The notes below the pieces were generated by a model, which was not told the DNA's origin, searched no databases, and saw only the letters and a list, made by a program, of their open reading frames with translations. From Saccharopolyspora gloriosae (GTDB lineage Bacteria > Actinomycetota > Actinomycetes > Mycobacteriales > Pseudonocardiaceae): a stretch of 64,000 nt of DNA. Location of the stretch: the NCBI RefSeq assembly GCF_014203325.1, contig NZ_JACHIV010000001.1, positions 3,039,501-3,103,500 on the forward strand, given 5' to 3'. Numbering within the stretch: the stretch's first letter is position 1; the number at the start of each line of letters is the position of its first letter. This document shows, piece after piece, positions 34,082 through 44,423 of the stretch. The position numbers and the translations under genes are program-made.

Positions 34082-35737
34082 TCAGCCCTGCAAGTCCAAG
34101 ATCGCGTAACCGAACCCCGGCACCGTGATCACCTCACCCTCCACCCGCACACCGCTGTCCTCGACCGGACGAGCCCCGGCCAACCGCTCATCGGCCACCG
34201 TCACCGCCGCCTCCTCCCGCCGCGGATTCGCGGTGACCAGGAAACGACCACCGCGCAGGTACGTCAGCGGATAACCGTCGGAGAACACCTCCACACCGGC
34301 CTGCGTGCCGAGCTCCGGATGCTGCTTGCGCAACGCCAGCAGCCGCCGCACGAAGTGCAGCAACGAACCAGGATCGTCCCGCTGCGCCTGCACGTTCGGC
34401 CGATCCTCGGACGGATCGATCGGGATGTAGAGGTCCTCGGCCGCAGCGCTGGAGAACCCGGCGTTCGGACCGTCGTTCCACTGCATCGGCGTGCGGTTGC
34501 GCTGACGACCCGCACTGCCCTCGACCTCCGGGAGGTCCTCGATCATCCGCATCCCGATCTCCTCGCCGTAGTACAGCGAAGGCACCGTCGGCCAGGTCAG
34601 CAGGAACGCGAACGCGACGGGCAGCTCCTCCGGCGTGCGCACCCCGTCGTTGAGCCGGTTCGCGCTGTCGTGGTTGGCCGTCGGCAGCATGATGCGCCCC
34701 GGCCCGATCTTCTCCGTCGCCGTCGTGAAGGCGTCCACGAAGATCTTCGCCGTCCCGGTGCCCTCAGCACCGAAGAACGGGTTCTCGTGCCACAACGACT
34801 TCCACGGCGCCCCATCACCAGGACCGTTGACCGGCAGGTAGAAGTCCGCGTCGAAACCGGCCGGCACCGACGTCTCCGGGTCGCCCCACTCGGAGATGAG
34901 CACCGCCTCCGGGTGGCTCTGCGCGACCCGCTCGCGCAGCTCGCCCCACAACCTGCTCGTCTCCACCCAGCCCGGGTCGTCCTTGACCAGCGTGGCCGCC
35001 AGATCGCACCGGAACCCCGAGATGCCCAGCCGCAGCCAGTGGTCCATCACCTGGAAGATCGCCTCGCGGTTGCGCCGCGGCCCCTCGTCGTCGACGCCCT
35101 GGCGCCACGGCTCCGCCGGATCCATCCGCGCGTAGCCGTAGTTGATCGCCGGCTGGGTGTCGTAGTAGTTCTTGCGGAACGCGCCCTGGCGCGGACCGGG
35201 GGAGGCCACGAACTCCTCCGGCAGCGAACCGTCCTCCGGCAGCTGCTCCGGCGTCGCCCAGATGTAGTTGTGGTCCTGGTCGTTCTGCAACGAATCCAAG
35301 AACCACGGGTGCTGGTCGGAGGTGTGGCCCGCGACCAGGTCGAACAGCACCCGCATGCCGCGCCGGCCCGCCTGCTCCACCAGCTCCGCCACGTCCTGCT
35401 CGTCGCCGTAGCGCGGGTGCACGCCCGTGTAGTCGGAGATGTCGTAGCCCGCATCGGTCAGCGGCGACGGGAACACCGGGTTCACCCAGATCGCGCCGAC
35501 ACCCAGCCACTGCAGGTGGTCCAGGTGCTCGATGATGCCGCGCAGGTCGCCGATGCCGTTGCCGTCGGTGTCGGCGAAGCTCTGCGGGTAGAGCTGGTAG
35601 AGCACCGAGTCGGCCAGCCACGAGGGCGTGCCCCCGGCCGCGGACGCTCCCGGCGCGCCGAGCACGGAGGGCGCGAACGCCACCCCCGTCAGCGCCGCAC
35701 CCGTCCCGAGCATGAACGATCGCCTGGACACCACCAT
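34082..35737 (-). CDS. Tat-exported GH13 alpha-glucosidase-like hydrolase
   Basis: 551 residues from ATG 35737. Residues 1-35 are a Tat signal peptide with VVSRRSFMLG. The mature protein is a GH13 (alpha/beta)8 barrel: region I DLVAGHTSDQHPWF (G where the family usually has N), region II nucleophile Asp in GFRCDLAA, region III acid Glu in LISEWGDP, and region IV TANHDSAN. The pattern is of the oligoglucosidase/trehalose-synthase branch, but it is folded before export and acts outside the membrane. Promoter carries the same operator as the bicupin operon and the symporter. Confidence 0.9.
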   Translation of the reverse strand: MVVSRRSFMLGTGAALTGVAFAPSVLGAPGASAAGGTPSWLADSVLYQLYPQSFADTDGNGIGDLRGIIEHLDHLQWLGVGAIWVNPVFPSPLTDAGYDISDYTGVHPRYGDEQDVAELVEQAGRRGMRVLFDLVAGHTSDQHPWFLDSLQNDQDHNYIWATPEQLPEDGSLPEEFVASPGPRQGAFRKNYYDTQPAINYGYARMDPAEPWRQGVDDEGPRRNREAIFQVMDHWLRLGISGFRCDLAATLVKDDPGWVETSRLWGELRERVAQSHPEAVLISEWGDPETSVPAGFDADFYLPVNGPGDGAPWKSLWHENPFFGAEGTGTAKIFVDAFTTATEKIGPGRIMLPTANHDSANRLNDGVRTPEELPVAFAFLLTWPTVPSLYYGEEIGMRMIEDLPEVEGSAGRQRNRTPMQWNDGPNAGFSSAAAEDLYIPIDPSEDRPNVQAQRDDPGSLLHFVRRLLALRKQHPELGTQAGVEVFSDGYPLTYLRGGRFLVTANPRREEAAVTVADERLAGARPVEDSGVRVEGEVITVPGFGYAILDLQG

Positions 35738-35950: not shown

Positions 35951-36268
35951 TCAGTCCTGGGCGAGAACGGCGGCCAGCAGCCCGGGGAAGCGCTGCTCGA
36001 ACTCCGGGCGCAGCGAATGCCAGCAGCGGGTGCCTTCCGGCCGGATGAAAACCACGCCGGCGCCGCGCAGCGTCGTGAAGTGGTGGCTCAACGTCGACTG
36101 CGAGACCTGCACCTCGAACTGCGCTCCCTGGTGCTCCTCGCCGTCGCTGAGCCCGCGCACGATCGCGAGCCGGACGGGATCGCCCAGCGCGGACAGGGCC
36201 TTGGCCAGCGGGACGTCGTCGAGTTTCGGGTGGTCGAGTCGGCGCACGCCGAGAAGTGTAGCGTTCAT
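35951..36268 (-). CDS. ArsR/SmtB-family transcriptional regulator
   Basis: 105 residues from ATG 36268. Winged-helix repressor: KALSALGDPVRLAIVRGL, recognition helix FEVQVSQSTLSHHFTTLRGAGVV. It lacks the CxC metal box on the recognition helix, so it need not sense metal. Divergent from an NmrA-family gene across a perfect palindrome, the pattern of a small redox-responsive pair. Confidence 0.92.
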   Translation of the reverse strand: MNATLLGVRRLDHPKLDDVPLAKALSALGDPVRLAIVRGLSDGEEHQGAQFEVQVSQSTLSHHFTTLRGAGVVFIRPEGTRCWHSLRPEFEQRFPGLLAAVLAQD

Positions 36269-36304: not shown

Positions 36305-37170
36305 ATGCTCTTGCTCACGGGAGCCACCGGAACCATCGGCGGAGCCCTCGCCCGCCTGCTCGCCGACCACGACGTGCCGTTCCGCGCCCTGGTGCGCCGC
36401 GAAGGCGTCACCATCCCCGGAGCCGACGTCGTCCTCGGCGACCTCGACGACCCCGCGACCCTGCCCGCGGCGTTCGACGGCGTCGACCAGCTCTTCCTCA
36501 ACACCGCCGGGCCCTACCCGGAGGAGGAGCCGGTCATCGCCCAGCAGCGCGCCGCGATCGACGCCGCCGCGGCCGCCGGGGTCGAACACGTCGTGAAGAT
36601 CTCCGCGGTGGGCACGCGGACCGGCGGCCCCATGCCGTTCGGCACCCACGCCACGATCGAAGCCCACCTCGCGAACTCCGGGCTCGCCGCGACAGTGCTG
36701 CGGCCCAACACCGTCATGCAGAACCTCGTGCGCGGGATCTCGAGCGTCACCCCCGAAGGCCGGTTCTTCGAACCCTTCGGCGGGAAGATCGCTCACGTCG
36801 ACGCCCGCGACGTCGCCGACAGCGCCTTCGCGGTGCTCACCGGCGCGGCGCCCAGGGGAGGGGCGCACGACCTCACCGGCCCTGAGGCGCTGACCGCGCC
36901 GGAACTGGCCGCCGTGCTCTCGACGACCCTGGACCGCGAGATCGAGCTCGTGCAGCCCGGACTCGACGAGCTCGCGCCGATCATGATCGGCCGGAGTCGT
37001 ACGTGCGGCACTTCGTCGAGCTCGCGGGACTCGTGACCGAGGGCGCGCTCGCTCAGGTCACCACCTCGGTCGCCGACCTCACCGGGAAACCGCCGCGGTC
37101 GATCGAGGCGTTCCTCGCCGAGCACCGCGAGCAGCTGCTGGCCCCGGTGAAGTCGTACTTCGAGGTGTAG
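36305..37170 (+). pseudogene. NmrA-family NAD(P)-binding protein, frameshifted near the C-terminus
   Basis: The intact part starts at ATG 36305 with LLLTGATGTIGGALARLL and NTAGPYPEEEPV and runs in frame to a premature stop at 37036. From about 36991 the -1 frame continues the same protein: PESYVRHFVELAGLVTEGAL, TGKPPRSIEAFL, to a stop at 37170. One base appears to be missing near 36985-36993 (GATCGGCCGGAG), so the 36305-37036 product carries a foreign tail. The gene is divergent from ArsR, and its product would be a quinone- or redox-type oxidoreductase. Sequencing error or recent mutation cannot be separated. Confidence 0.8.
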
Positions 37171-37204
37171 GCGCGGGGAGGGGAAGCGCGGCCTGATCTC
37201 CATT

Positions 37205-37232
37205 ACTTGACATAATGTAGATTATCGGCACT
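37205..37232 (-). other. dif: XerCD recombination site dif
   Basis: On the minus strand this 28-bp site reads XerC arm AGTGCCGATAA, 6-base spacer TCTACA, XerD arm TTATGTCAAGT. The E. coli site has arms GGTGCGCATAA and TTATGTTAAAT around TGTATA, so 9 of 11 bases match in each arm, with the same spacing. It lies in intergenic DNA next to a change in G/C strand bias. XerC/XerD resolve chromosome dimers here at the terminus. Confidence 0.88.
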
Positions 37233-38121
37233 TCGTCGACCTGGGGTCATCGGGGCGAGAGGGGCTGAAATCCGCCTGTCGGCCGCACCGGACGACCGTT
37301 CCGACGACGGCCGTCCGGCAGGGCTCGGGCGACCGTCGAGGCGCCGGCGCCGGCTCGGCTGCGGCGTGCCGTTCGTCCGCGACGGCGGGCGCCGCGGCGG
37401 ACGTCGTGCGAGCCGGACCGCCATGGCGCCGGACTGTGAGCGTCGCCGTGAGCGCCCAAGTGCGCCGTCGTGCCGCTCCGGCCCGGATACCCCACTTGAC
37501 CTGCGCGTCCCCTTGCCCTTCCTATTTCCGTCACAGTGACGTTTCTCTACGTTCGCAGGGGCTGTGGAGCACTGGCGGGCAAGGCGTTCCGGCGCCGCTG
37601 AAGATCCACAAGGACGTCGTGGATCAAGGACCGGCGGCGCCGACGAGCCGTCCAAGTGAGCAATCCGGCACCACGGCGTGATCGCGATGCCGAGGCGCGA
37701 ACGTCGAAGCGCGAAACAGGTGCCGTGGCGATGGAGTACCGGCAGCGGCGAACAGGTCCCCCGGGCGGGAGCCCCTCATCCCCTTCTCCATTTGATGGAT
37801 AATCAACGTTATCCACCAATCCACATTGATCAACTTTGAGAGGTGTCCGCGCTCGCCGCCCAGGTCGACCACGCCGGGCTCCCCGATCTCCGGCAGCCGG
37901 CGAGGCCGCCATCGCCAGCACTCCTCGCCCGCCCAGACCGCCTTTCCCAGCCCCGACGGTCGCCCTGACAGCTCTTCGCCGCCTCCGCTCCCCTCTCCCC
38001 GACCTCCGCCCGGCTCTCGCCGGTGTCCCCTGTTCGGGGGTTGGCGTTCCTCGCGCAGGGGGTGTAGCGATCTCGTGGCTCCGGGTACTCCCTCACCAGT
38101 CCACTGCAGGGAGGTCGAGGG
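37233..38121. other. Terminus-proximal noncoding region with palindromes
   Basis: Nearly 900 bases with no convincing gene: open frames are Arg/Pro-rich and one only translates the dif site. Notable sequences are CGTCAC-A-GTGACG at 37529-37541, preceded by TTGACC at 37496-37501, and an A/T-rich 37790-37833 patch holding TGGATAA-TCAACG-TTATCCA (37796-37815) and TTGATCAA. Low gene density around dif is common. Confidence 0.55.
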
Positions 38122-38382
38122 ATGCTGCCCAGGCACGAACGTCGCCGTATCGCGGAGATCGAGAAGGGCCTGAGCTTGCAGGACCCTGATTTCGCCCATC
38201 GCCTGCGGGAAGCGGAGCTGCCGGAGAGGTCCCGGCCGGGCGTGCGGGTGGTGCTGGGCATCGTGGCGGTGGTGGTCGCGGTGCTGTGCATGCTGCTCGG
38301 CGAGGTCGCCGGGTTCCTGCTCACGGGCCTGCTGGCGACGCTGCTGCTGGCGGGCGGCGGCTGGCGGTTGTTGACCGCCTGA
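38122..38382 (+). CDS. DUF3040 family membrane protein
   Basis: 86 residues from ATG 38122, with GGGAGG upstream. N-terminal RRIAEIEKGLSLQDPDFAHRLRE matches the DUF3040 start, followed by two close hydrophobic helices (VVLGIVAVVVAVLCMLLG and VAGFLLTGLLATLLLAGG). Actinobacteria-specific membrane protein of unknown function. Confidence 0.87.
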   Translation: MLPRHERRRIAEIEKGLSLQDPDFAHRLREAELPERSRPGVRVVLGIVAVVVAVLCMLLGEVAGFLLTGLLATLLLAGGGWRLLTA

Positions 38383-38393
38383 CCCCGCGCCGT

Positions 38394-38702
38394 TCAGGGG
38401 CGCCAGCGCGCGCGGTAGCCGGGCCGGTCGGAGTAGGGCAGGCCGAGCAGGGCGCGGGTGGTGCAGCCGCGCTCGTCCTCCGGCGGGTAGGTCTGGCCGA
38501 GCTCGTCGCAGGGGCCGTTGCCTGCGCCGCAGTGCTGGTGCAGCCGCAGCAGGCGGGTCTTGAGCTCGCATTCGCGGAACCCGCGGAACACGCTGCCGCC
38601 GCAGCGGGCGGTGGTGCCCGCCTCCATGTCCTCGCGTGCCCAGCGCAGCAGTTCCAGGTCGATGTCGATCTGGCGCCGCAGGAACTCGGCGAAGCGGTTC
38701 AT
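38394..38702 (-). CDS. DUF6221 family protein
   Basis: 102 residues from ATG 38702 (a GTG at 38705 adds one), with GGGGGACA upstream. Fits DUF6221: an N-terminal helix MNRFAEFLRRQIDIDLELLRW, then Cys/His-rich ECELKTRLLRLHQHC and ending with TTRALLGLPYSDRPGYRARWRP. Found mostly in actinomycetes and their phages; function unknown. The several cysteines might bind a metal. Confidence 0.8.
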   Translation of the reverse strand: MNRFAEFLRRQIDIDLELLRWAREDMEAGTTARCGGSVFRGFRECELKTRLLRLHQHCGAGNGPCDELGQTYPPEDERGCTTRALLGLPYSDRPGYRARWRP

Positions 38703-41423: not shown

Positions 41424-44423
41424 TCAGGTTCGGGTGAAGCGGATGGTGACGATTTCGAAGGGGCGCAGTCGCAGTGGCCGGGGTTCGTGCCAGGTCTCCC
41501 CCGTCGGCCGTTCGAGCAGGTCGGTGCGGGTTGCGGCGGTGGTGTCGAAGTGGGGGGTGAGGGTGGTGGTGGCTCGTCCGCCGCGGGATTCGTAGAGGCG
41601 GACGATGACGTCGCCGGAGCGGTCTTCGGCGAGTTTGACGGATTCGATGATCACGGCGTCGGAGTCGAGGGTGACCAGGGGTGTGATGTGGGCGGAGCCG
41701 GGGATTTCGCGTGGGGGCAGGTTGATGCGGTAGCCCTCGCGGACGGCGTCGCCGATGTCGGCGCCGACGACCAGGGCGTAGCGCAGGTGGTGGCGGCCGT
41801 GGTCGGTGTCGGGGTCGGGGAATCGGGGTGCGCGCAGCAGGGAGAGGCGGACGGTGGTGGTGGTTGCTCCGTCGGGGCGGGTGTCGCGGGTGACGTCGTG
41901 GCCGTAGGTGGAGTCGTTGACGAGGGCGTGGCCGTAGCCGTGTTCGCCGACGTGCAGCCAGCGGTGGGCGCAGATCTCGAACTTGGCGGCGTCCCAGGAG
42001 GTGTTGGTGTGGGTGGCGCGGTGGACGTGGCCGAATTGGGTTTCGGCGGCGGAGCGGTCGGCGTGGACGTCGAGGGGGAAGGCGACTTTGAGGATTTTTT
42101 CGGTTTCGTGCCAGTCGATGTCGGCGTGGAATTCGATGTTGCGGCCGTGGAGGGTGATGCGTTGTTCGATGGTGGAGTCGCCGAAGGTGCGGTGGATGAC
42201 GGCGGTGGTGCCGTCGAGGGTGAGGTGGTCGGTGGTGGTGAGGTCGTGGCTGTGGTGGCGGTAGAACTCGTCGAGGTCCCAGGCGTCCCAGGCGTTGGGG
42301 TGGTCTGGGTGCAGTTGCAGGAGGTTGGCGGGGTGGCCGGGTGGGAGTGCTTCGCGGCCGGTGGTGAGGTCGGTGATGGTGGTGAGCAGTCCGCGGTGGT
42401 CGAGGGTGGCGCGGATGAGTCCGTTGTCGAGTACGAGGGTGTCGTCGGGGTTTTCGGTGGCGGTGGTGGCTGCTGCGGGGGTGGGGGTGCCGGCGCCGAG
42501 GGCGGGGATGTCGTCGCGGGTGTGGGGTGTGGCGTTGAAGGTGATGGGGTCGGTGCCGGGTCCGGCTAGGGCGCGTTGGGCTTGGTCGATGAGTTCGTGG
42601 AGTTCGGCGGCGACGCGTTGGTAGGTCTGTTCGGCTTCGCGGTGGACCCAGGCGATGGAGGATCCGGGCAGGATGTCGTGGAATTGGTGGAGCAGGACGG
42701 TTTTCCAGAGCGCGTCGAGTTGTTCGTGGGGGTAGTCGCGGCCGAGGGCGACGGTGGCGGTGGTGCTCCAGAGTTCGGCTTCGCGCAGGAGGTGTTCGCT
42801 GCGGCGGTTGCCTTGTTTGGTGCGGGCTTGGGAGGTGTAGGTGCCGCGGTGGAATTCGAGGTAGAGCTCGCCGGACCAGACGGCGGGGTCGCGGTGGTCG
42901 GTTTCGGCGGCGGCGAAGAATTCGGCGGGTGAGTCGAGCTGGACGGTGGGTGATCCTTCGAGGTCGGCGAGGCGCCGGGCGCGGGCGAGCATGTCGCGGG
43001 TGGGTCCGCCGCCGCCGTCGCCGTACCCGAAGGGGACGAGGGATCGGGTGGCGTGGCCGTGTTCGGCGAAGTTGCGGGAGGCGTGGGCGAGTTCGGCTCC
43101 GGACAGTTCGGAGTTGTAGGTGTCGATGGGTGGGAAGTGGGTGAACACGCGGGTGCCGTCGATGCCTTCCCATTGGAAGGTGTGGTGCGGGAATTTGTTG
43201 GTCTGGTTCCAGGAGATCTTCTGGGTGAGGAACCAGCGGGATCCGGAGAGCCGGACGAGTTGTGGGAGTGCGCCGCTGTAGCCGAAGGAGTCGGGTAGCC
43301 ACACTTCTGGGGTGTCGATGCCGAATTCGTCGAGGTAGAAGCGTTTTCCGTGGAGGAATTGGCGGGCCATGGCTTCGGCGCCGGGCATGTTGGTGTCGGA
43401 TTCGACCCACATGCCGCCGACGGGGATGAATTGGCCGGTGCGGACGTGGTGGCGGACTCGGTCGAACAGTTCTGGTTGGTGTTCTTTGAGCCAGGCGAGT
43501 TGTTGGGCTTGTGACATGGCGAACCTGAAGTCGGGGTGTTCGTCCATGAGTGCGGTGACGTTGGCGACGGTGCGGGCGACTTTGCGGATGGTTTCTCGCA
43601 GTGGCCACAGCCAGGCGGAGTCGATGTGGGCGTGGCCGACGGCGCTGAGGCGGTGGGCGCTGGTGTGGGCGGGTGCGGCGAGGGCGGTGGTGAGTTCGGC
43701 GCGGGCGGCGGGTGCGGTGGTGTGCACGTCGTGGAGGTCGAGTCGGTCGAGCATGCGTTCGAGGGCGCGGAGGATGTCGTGGCGGCGTGGTGAGTCGGTG
43801 GGTAGTTCGCGCATGAGTTGGGCGAGGACTTCGGTGTCGTGGACGAGGTTCCAGGTGTGGAGGTCGCGCAGGGCGAGGTCGGCGCGGGTGAGCTGGTAGA
43901 GGGGTTGTCCGGTGGTGGGGCGTCCGTCGAGCCATGGGGGTGGGTCGCCGAGTGCGGTGGGCCGGTAGCCGTCGTCGCCGAGGATCAGGGGGTTGGCGGC
44001 GGCTTCGACGTACCAGAGGAGTTGTTGTCCTGGTTCGGCGTCGACGGGGATGTGGGTGTTGCGGGGGTTGAGGCCTTTGAGGGGGGTGCCGTCGGCGGTG
44101 TGGACGAGGCCTTCGCAGTGGAATCCGGGGCGGTCGAGGTCGAAGCCGAGGTCGATGACGGCTTCGAGGGGGTGTCCTGCCCAGTCGTGGGGGATGGTGC
44201 CGGAGATGCGGAACCAGGTGGTGCCCCAGGGTGGTCCCCAGGGTTGGCCGGGTTGGACCGGGTTGTAGGTGGCGTGGAGGGCGTGGGTGGCGGGGACGGG
44301 TTCTCCGGGGACGTGCCATGCGGCGATGTCGAGGGGGTGGGTCCGTGCGTGCACGGCGGGGTGCAGGCGTTCGGTGAGGACTCGGTCGAGTCGTTTTTCC
44401 ACTACGGCGCGATCGTCGTGCAT
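41424..44423 (-). CDS. GH38 alpha-mannosidase
   Basis: 999 residues from ATG 44423 (GGGGAG upstream); earlier frame is noncoding. GH38 catalytic domain with the zinc/nucleophile motifs GHAHIDSAWLWP and WLPDSFGYSGALPQ, and EFHRGTYTSQA typical of class II enzymes, then the mid-helical and all-beta C-terminal domains ending in LRPFEIVTIRF. Cytosolic (no signal). Removes alpha-mannose from intracellular oligosaccharides. Stands alone; G-rich + strand shows its coding strand is C-rich. Confidence 0.95.
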   Translation of the reverse strand: MHDDRAVVEKRLDRVLTERLHPAVHARTHPLDIAAWHVPGEPVPATHALHATYNPVQPGQPWGPPWGTTWFRISGTIPHDWAGHPLEAVIDLGFDLDRPGFHCEGLVHTADGTPLKGLNPRNTHIPVDAEPGQQLLWYVEAAANPLILGDDGYRPTALGDPPPWLDGRPTTGQPLYQLTRADLALRDLHTWNLVHDTEVLAQLMRELPTDSPRRHDILRALERMLDRLDLHDVHTTAPAARAELTTALAAPAHTSAHRLSAVGHAHIDSAWLWPLRETIRKVARTVANVTALMDEHPDFRFAMSQAQQLAWLKEHQPELFDRVRHHVRTGQFIPVGGMWVESDTNMPGAEAMARQFLHGKRFYLDEFGIDTPEVWLPDSFGYSGALPQLVRLSGSRWFLTQKISWNQTNKFPHHTFQWEGIDGTRVFTHFPPIDTYNSELSGAELAHASRNFAEHGHATRSLVPFGYGDGGGGPTRDMLARARRLADLEGSPTVQLDSPAEFFAAAETDHRDPAVWSGELYLEFHRGTYTSQARTKQGNRRSEHLLREAELWSTTATVALGRDYPHEQLDALWKTVLLHQFHDILPGSSIAWVHREAEQTYQRVAAELHELIDQAQRALAGPGTDPITFNATPHTRDDIPALGAGTPTPAAATTATENPDDTLVLDNGLIRATLDHRGLLTTITDLTTGREALPPGHPANLLQLHPDHPNAWDAWDLDEFYRHHSHDLTTTDHLTLDGTTAVIHRTFGDSTIEQRITLHGRNIEFHADIDWHETEKILKVAFPLDVHADRSAAETQFGHVHRATHTNTSWDAAKFEICAHRWLHVGEHGYGHALVNDSTYGHDVTRDTRPDGATTTTVRLSLLRAPRFPDPDTDHGRHHLRYALVVGADIGDAVREGYRINLPPREIPGSAHITPLVTLDSDAVIIESVKLAEDRSGDVIVRLYESRGGRATTTLTPHFDTTAATRTDLLERPTGETWHEPRPLRLRPFEIVTIRFTRT

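Follow-up and report, generated by a model that had tools for sequence, protein, structure and literature searches.

The dif site of Saccharopolyspora gloriosae and an adjacent palindrome associated with a third Xer-type recombinase

Known Systems for Dimer Resolution

The dif site and the XerCD recombinases are usually regarded as the sole dimer-resolution system of the chromosome. For actinobacteria, a dif of 28 bp, in which two 11-bp arms flank a 6-bp spacer (11-6-11), was proposed in Frankia alni, with one site per chromosome at the terminus and with XerCD and FtsK as its partners (Kono et al. 2011, PMC3025954). XerS/difSL and XerH/difH rely on one Xer-type recombinase and a nearly symmetric site, which the recombinase gene often adjoins; the passages of the review drawn on here describe them as alternatives to XerCD and not as companions (PMC5357621). 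In Corynebacterium, (T/C)GGGGGAG was published as an architecture-imparting sequence (AIMS), with leading-strand polarity and a switch at dif (PMC3022926, PMC3219685, in the parts cited). For the tyrosine recombinases of actinobacterial plasmids, a survey from 2012 stated in the part cited that the families resolving plasmid dimers could not be told (PMC3414803).

The locus compared here with these systems lies in a stretch of 64,000 nucleotides of the S. gloriosae chromosome, called the 64-kb window below. A preliminary description, made from the letters alone, had recognized a dif site in this window; the same gap holds two further elements absent from that description, a palindrome P and a motif M (Table 1). 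The names P and M, and Rec3 for the recombinase associated with P, were coined in this analysis.

Table 1. Positions of dif, its companions and the flanking octamers in the window
Feature	Positions	Strand	Description
Last CGGGGGAG octamer before dif	35197..35204	+	directed at dif
dif	37205..37232	minus	XerC arm 37232-37222, spacer 37221-37216, XerD arm 37215-37205
M	37529..37541		palindrome CGTCACAGTGACG; dif companion
P	37792..37819		11-6-11 palindrome TTGATGGATAA-TCAACG-TTATCCACCAA, 10/11 pairs; candidate Rec3 core site
First CGGGGGAG octamer after dif	41496..41503	-	directed at dif

The Chromosomal dif Site and Its Predicted Recombinases

The 11-6-11 site was found again at the same place, where the minus strand reads AGTGCCGATAA-TCTACA-TTATGTCAAGT over 28 bp. 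Each arm had been said to match the quoted E. coli arm at 9 of 11 bases, which is correct for the right arm, while the left arm matches at 8 of 11. The surrounding gap is gene-poor as described, with an NmrA-like frame ending near 37170 and a DUF3040 gene starting at 38123. At up to three mismatches, the 28-mer has one match in the window (mean 0.00 over 100 shuffles) and no other in the whole genome, a single contig of 6,825,909 bases (6.83 Mb) in which the reversed control gave 0 matches, so that the expectation of one dif per chromosome is borne out. Comparison with a published actinobacterial dif, which had been suggested as a check, gave 23 of 28 bases identical to the site proposed for F. 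alni (PMC3025954, in the passages cited). In a survey of 100 genomes, S. gloriosae included, with the 25-base core as query and up to three mismatches, a dif-type match was found in 93, as a single copy in 90 of these and as two or three copies in 3; 7 genomes had none.

The partners of dif in the actinobacterial system, an XerC-like protein, XerD and an FtsK with alpha and gamma domains, are all encoded in the genome. One tyrosine recombinase lies above the cut-off of the XerD model (330.8 against 329.6 bits), and the frame adjoining its gene resembles parA by eye. Another has the XerC model as its best match, yet stays below the cut-off (306.2 against 335.15 bits); its adjoining frames resemble dprA and whiG by eye. 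Judging by homology, position and polarity, dif would resolve dimers at division through XerC and XerD, delivered and activated by FtsK. For dif itself nothing essential differs from the actinobacterial system, although adjacent elements such as P and M are unmentioned in the passages cited of PMC3025954, and a chromosomal dif is by itself an ordinary finding.

Other features of the region were recorded as well. The NmrA-like gene (36306-37170) shows a frame break near 36990-37036: the NmrA-matching frame ends at 37036 and similar coding seems to continue in another frame to about 37170. An ArsR-type regulator gene (35951-36268) is divergent from it. No Rfam match up to E 1 was obtained in 36900-38500, and the 64-kb window contains no tRNA.

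Position and Polarity of the Terminus

dnaA has one match in the genome, with its start at 6,469,614. The distance from dif is 3,392,909 bp or 49.7% of the genome, and the site is thus roughly opposite dnaA as predicted. In 20-kb samples, GC skew was positive in 8 of 9 before dif and negative in 8 of 9 between dif and dnaA. The octamer CGGGGGAG is the top-ranked dif-directed biased octamer of the genome, in which it occurs 780 times and the reversed octamer 210 times; of the 58 copies found up to 200 kb to either side of dif, 56 are directed at it, and the best interval for the switch of orientation is −2009 to +4290 around dif (−2.0/+4.3 kb). All four copies in the window (4/4) point towards dif, and no enrichment was found there (4 copies against 7.25 in shuffles). 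The same direction was observed within 100 kb of dif in genomes G002 (28/28), G003 (38/38), G017 (17/18) and G071 (22/24), among which the octamer ranks first of the dif-biased octamers in all but G017, where it ranks second. As a strand-biased octamer that switches at dif, CGGGGGAG fits the KOPS/AIMS description and is a candidate for such a role. It is the same octamer as the Corynebacterium AIMS and shares its leading-strand polarity and its switch at dif, but occurs here in Pseudonocardiaceae-like genomes and in G071, which belongs to another family (PMC3022926, PMC3219685, in the parts cited).

A strong local swing of GC skew was seen around dif at 18000-48000 of the window, with a sign opposite to the sampled genome-wide pattern. 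Local skew was rejected as a terminus test, the cumulative skew of the window having its minimum near dif, contrary to the genome-wide sampling; the octamers are the cleaner signal of the terminus. This local reversal is what could be said for the 28-mer being a chance or decayed Xer-like site and not dif, an explanation that is extremely improbable: the 28-mer is unique, lies opposite dnaA at the octamer switch and is matched in 93 of 100 genomes, and no better site was found elsewhere in the genome at up to three mismatches. Its uniqueness, the shuffle mean of 0.00 and the matches in other genomes led to the rejection of this candidate.

One gene is cut at residue 57 by the contig ends, and all 5 of 5 congeners have a full-length match to it in one piece; this split gene shows that the chromosome is circular. 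Neither contig-end overlap nor long terminal inverted repeats were seen in the 20-kb ends. Several good copies, a location near dnaA and a linear chromosome had been named as grounds for doubting the site, and none of these was found. With a single copy opposite dnaA, where the octamer and the sampled GC skew change sign, the 28-mer is almost certainly the dif of the chromosome terminus, as first claimed.

The Palindrome P

P measures 28 bp and lies 559 bp from dif, with a window chance of 0.00. Its ATAA-N6-TTAT core, at 37799 in the middle of P, is the only one in the window besides that of dif, and P is unique in the genome at up to three mismatches to a degenerate pattern. The exact pattern was found in 76 of 150 family genomes and 22 of 46 genera (reversed control 0/150), and its arms covary across relatives as GGATAA/TTATCC or GCATAA/TTATGC. 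When eight genomes are aligned, dif, P and M, along with some shorter conserved blocks, stand out from diverged non-coding DNA. The 74 of 150 family genomes that have no exact P indicate that the P/Rec3 module is dispensable. Two to four copies of P each were seen in G103, G168 and G296 and in the f8 genomes G066, G264 and G294.

Two other identities of P were rejected. As a general operator of a conserved neighbour, P would need a conserved gene beside it, and the largest gene cluster in about 5 kb around dif spans just 6 of 21 genomes as judged by a home-made ORF caller. As a protelomerase-type target, it is contradicted by its spacer, which is non-palindromic by eye.

Rec3, a Third Xer-Type Recombinase

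The third tyrosine recombinase of the genome, Rec3 (2,453,373-2,454,359; 329 aa), falls below both the XerC and the XerD cut-offs and is no equivalog of either, with 28% identity to the XerC and 32% to the XerD of the same genome. Its nearest solved relative by sequence is E. coli XerD, and the catalytic residues R-K-H-R-H-Y are kept in 41 of 41 aligned sequences. A quick tree united the 41 Rec3 rows (SH-aLRT 98) and set them apart from the XerC, the XerD and another recombinase of S. gloriosae, these three rows being the only outgroup and a long-branch warning applying.

Rec3 was detected in 78 of 150 family genomes (E ≤1e-60) and 23 of 46 genera, and all 76 genomes with the exact P encode it (Fisher's p 3e-41, calculated over related genomes that are not independent events). 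The two genomes with Rec3 and no exact P, G016 (74% complete) and G172, carry a P-like palindrome of 8/11 pairs in front of the gene. Genus g23 is variable, G132 having P and Rec3 and G027 and G104 neither. Several named loci also have P in front of a tyrosine recombinase gene related to Rec3.

Placement of P Relative to dif and Rec3

Of 20 relatives compared over 20-kb segments, 15 have the core pattern of P to the XerC side of dif, and in 13 of these P has at least 9/11 pairs. Counting S. gloriosae, 15 of 21 genomes have P on this side no more than 700 bp from dif (G011 has it at 1 kb), as against 0 of 504 control windows. The 100-genome dif set shares 31 P-bearing genomes with the family set, and 29 of these were measured, G006 and G051 being left out; P is on the XerC side in 29/29, at 284-1027 bp in 28 and at 3.3 kb in G022. 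In G006, P is at −648 relative to dif.

A wider distribution emerged at order level, where P with up to two mismatches was found in 39 of 200 genomes (reversed control 0): 18 of the family itself, 16 of 28 of family f15 and 5 of 29 of family f8. In f15, P lies on the XerD side, 359-1004 bp from dif in 16 of 16 loci, and Rec3 is next to it in 15 of 16, the exception, L370, being a short locus; in f8, dif is near P on the XerC side in 2 of the 5 loci and was not found in the sequence examined in 3. A scan of named genomes for P gave at least 119 stretches, and 80 loci among the matches listed were analysed, with dif called at up to four mismatches (shuffled control, dif in 0 of 40 loci). Of the 80, 50 contain dif: P lies 267-778 bp away on the XerC side in 43, and in the remaining 7, all Rhodococcus, on the XerD side. 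The other 30 listed loci belong to mycobacteria, Streptosporangiales, a Nocardiopsis and MAGs of other phyla or groups; dif was not found in the sequence examined there, which speaks against the model proposed below. That P occupies opposite sides of dif in different lineages suggests repeated placement near dif.

The relation of P to the Rec3 gene is looser. Both places are known for 72 genomes. In 44 of them the start of Rec3 is no more than 5 kb from P, which is always upstream, and in 22 of the 72 P is just 86-138 bp ahead of the gene (centre to first matched codon). At such loci P falls in the presumed Rec3 promoter region, so that an operator role is possible, and the symmetric arms would also suit a dimeric repressor. 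It is nevertheless unlikely that P is only an operator for self-repression of Rec3, with the recombinase acting at another, undetected site or helping at dif. In 28 of the 72 genomes the gene is elsewhere, on another contig in 14 and at 7.8 kb to megabases in 14, yet P remains by dif in these lineages; in S. gloriosae, Rec3 is 623 kb away, and no P-like palindrome was found at the gene itself. Neither does an operator account for P standing beside dif on opposite sides in different lineages. A recombination site is favoured over an operator because of the 11-6-11 geometry, the covarying arms, the co-occurrence with a catalytically intact Rec3 and the location of P at dif despite a distant gene.

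The distant gene also counts against the best explanation set out below, since the P-associated gene of the lineage of S. gloriosae belongs to a separate Rec3 group and is not adjacent to P. This separate branch of the tree comprises Rec3 of the same genus and of g6, g13, g26, g35, g36 and g39, and every measured member is distant from P.

Relatives on Plasmids and Phages

Relatives of Rec3 (E ≤1e-30) were found on 60 plasmid records, with 34-39% identity among the matches listed, and the hosts are Mycobacterium, Mycolicibacterium, Rhodococcus, Prescottella, Corynebacterium and Dietzia only. Ten plasmids were examined, 9 of them circular, and in 8 the recombinase gene has a P-like palindrome (at least 9/11 pairs with an ATAA-N6-TTAT core) no more than 1.3 kb away; that of the M. 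chubuense plasmid reaches 8/11 pairs only, and none was found near the gene of the M. vanbaalenii plasmid. Rec3 relatives on large plasmids resemble the recombinases surveyed in 2012, but a chromosomal, dif-linked form is unmentioned in the passages cited of that survey (PMC3414803). In the phage collection, 5 distant matches to Rec3 were obtained, in Listeria and Enterococcus phages.

The plasmid records, the several copies of P in some genomes and the patchy presence between genera could be taken to mean that P and Rec3 form a mobile or plasmid-derived module for which the dif region is a safe landing place, with no role for the host. We judge this quite improbable, given that the measured family genomes hold P as one copy, in one place and on one side of dif, that P stays at dif when the gene is distant, and that neither cargo nor flanking repeats were seen in a non-systematic look.

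The Motif M

M reads CGTCACNGTGACG and has a window chance of 0.02. To the XerC side, no more than 700 bp from dif, it was found in 12 of 21 family genomes and in 11 of 30 at order level; 0 of these 51 had it on the opposite side, and its 11-base core occurred in 0 of 504 control windows. Of the 50 listed named loci that contain dif, 42 carry the core on the XerC side and 2 on the XerD side. M occurs without P in G018, G019 and several order-level loci, and is therefore not simply part of the Rec3 module. The S. gloriosae genome has the core in 12 places, most of them in a G+C-rich context, with A+T-rich ones occurring at dif, at 3.02 Mb (two of them) and about 8 kb from dnaA.

The two A+T-flanked cores at 3.02 Mb (G000:C1:3019715 and 3024884, L070) are 52-57 kb from dif. 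Near them lies a gene for a tyrosine recombinase (410-aa frame), whose conserved counterparts in G003 and G017 likewise have an M core in their vicinity. The spacing of P and M is often about 72-77 bp (L214, L222, L258, L259 and family loci such as G032) and 117 in L213, and close spacing was also seen in mycobacterial loci where dif was not found in the sequence examined. Compared as a motif, M appears to fit none of ARG box, matS and CRP site, and a full-text literature search for its letters returned, among the matches listed, nearly all eukaryotic work.

A Model for P and Rec3 at the Terminus

The best reading of these data, drawn from sequence and from analogy, is that P and Rec3 form a single-recombinase module of the XerS/difSL kind held in the dif zone. 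It is fairly probable that the locus is a composite one, in which the 28-mer is dif and P is the core recombination site of Rec3 kept in the dif zone. Among systems of demonstrated function, XerS/difSL and XerH/difH come closest: each has one Xer-type recombinase with a nearly symmetric site and a gene that often adjoins it. The centre of difSL has 11 bp and that of P 6 bp (PMC5357621, in the passages cited). Whereas the XerS and XerH systems replace XerCD, the S. gloriosae genome carries an XerC-like gene, XerD and dif, and Rec3-P coexists with dif/XerCD within about 1 kb, with its candidate recombinase known from sequence. Among the open-licence papers listed by literature searches, titles and abstract openings named neither a third Xer recombinase nor a second palindrome beside an actinobacterial dif, which is weak evidence of absence.

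In the proposed mechanism, a Rec3 homodimer would bind both 11-bp arms of P and exchange strands across the 6-bp spacer, as XerS does at difSL or XerH at difH. P would be kept in the zone around dif where the octamers converge and would there meet the sister P at the septum, which would provide, next to dif, a second reaction for resolving dimers or unlinking sisters. A role of this kind at the septum is likely for P, given that the converging octamers at 35197 and 41496 enclose dif and M as well as P.

Implications

Conserved beside dif and tied to the gene of a third recombinase, P suggests that two recombination systems may exist side by side where replication ends. A broader proposal, which we rate somewhat below an even chance, is that many actinobacteria resolve dimers by two systems within a single terminus gap. 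One would be XerCD at dif, the other an independent homodimeric Rec3 at P within about 1 kb; the latter would be shared with plasmids, placed on one or the opposite side of dif depending on the lineage, and kept where FtsK pumps DNA, with M as a third, architectural site. For the large plasmids of mycobacteria and rhodococci, Rec3-P is a candidate multimer-resolution system. For the chromosome, a second recombinase and site by dif in several actinobacterial lineages, if true, would imply redundancy or distinct tasks for the two systems, such as dimer resolution for one and sister unlinking for the other, or action at vegetative and at sporulation septa.
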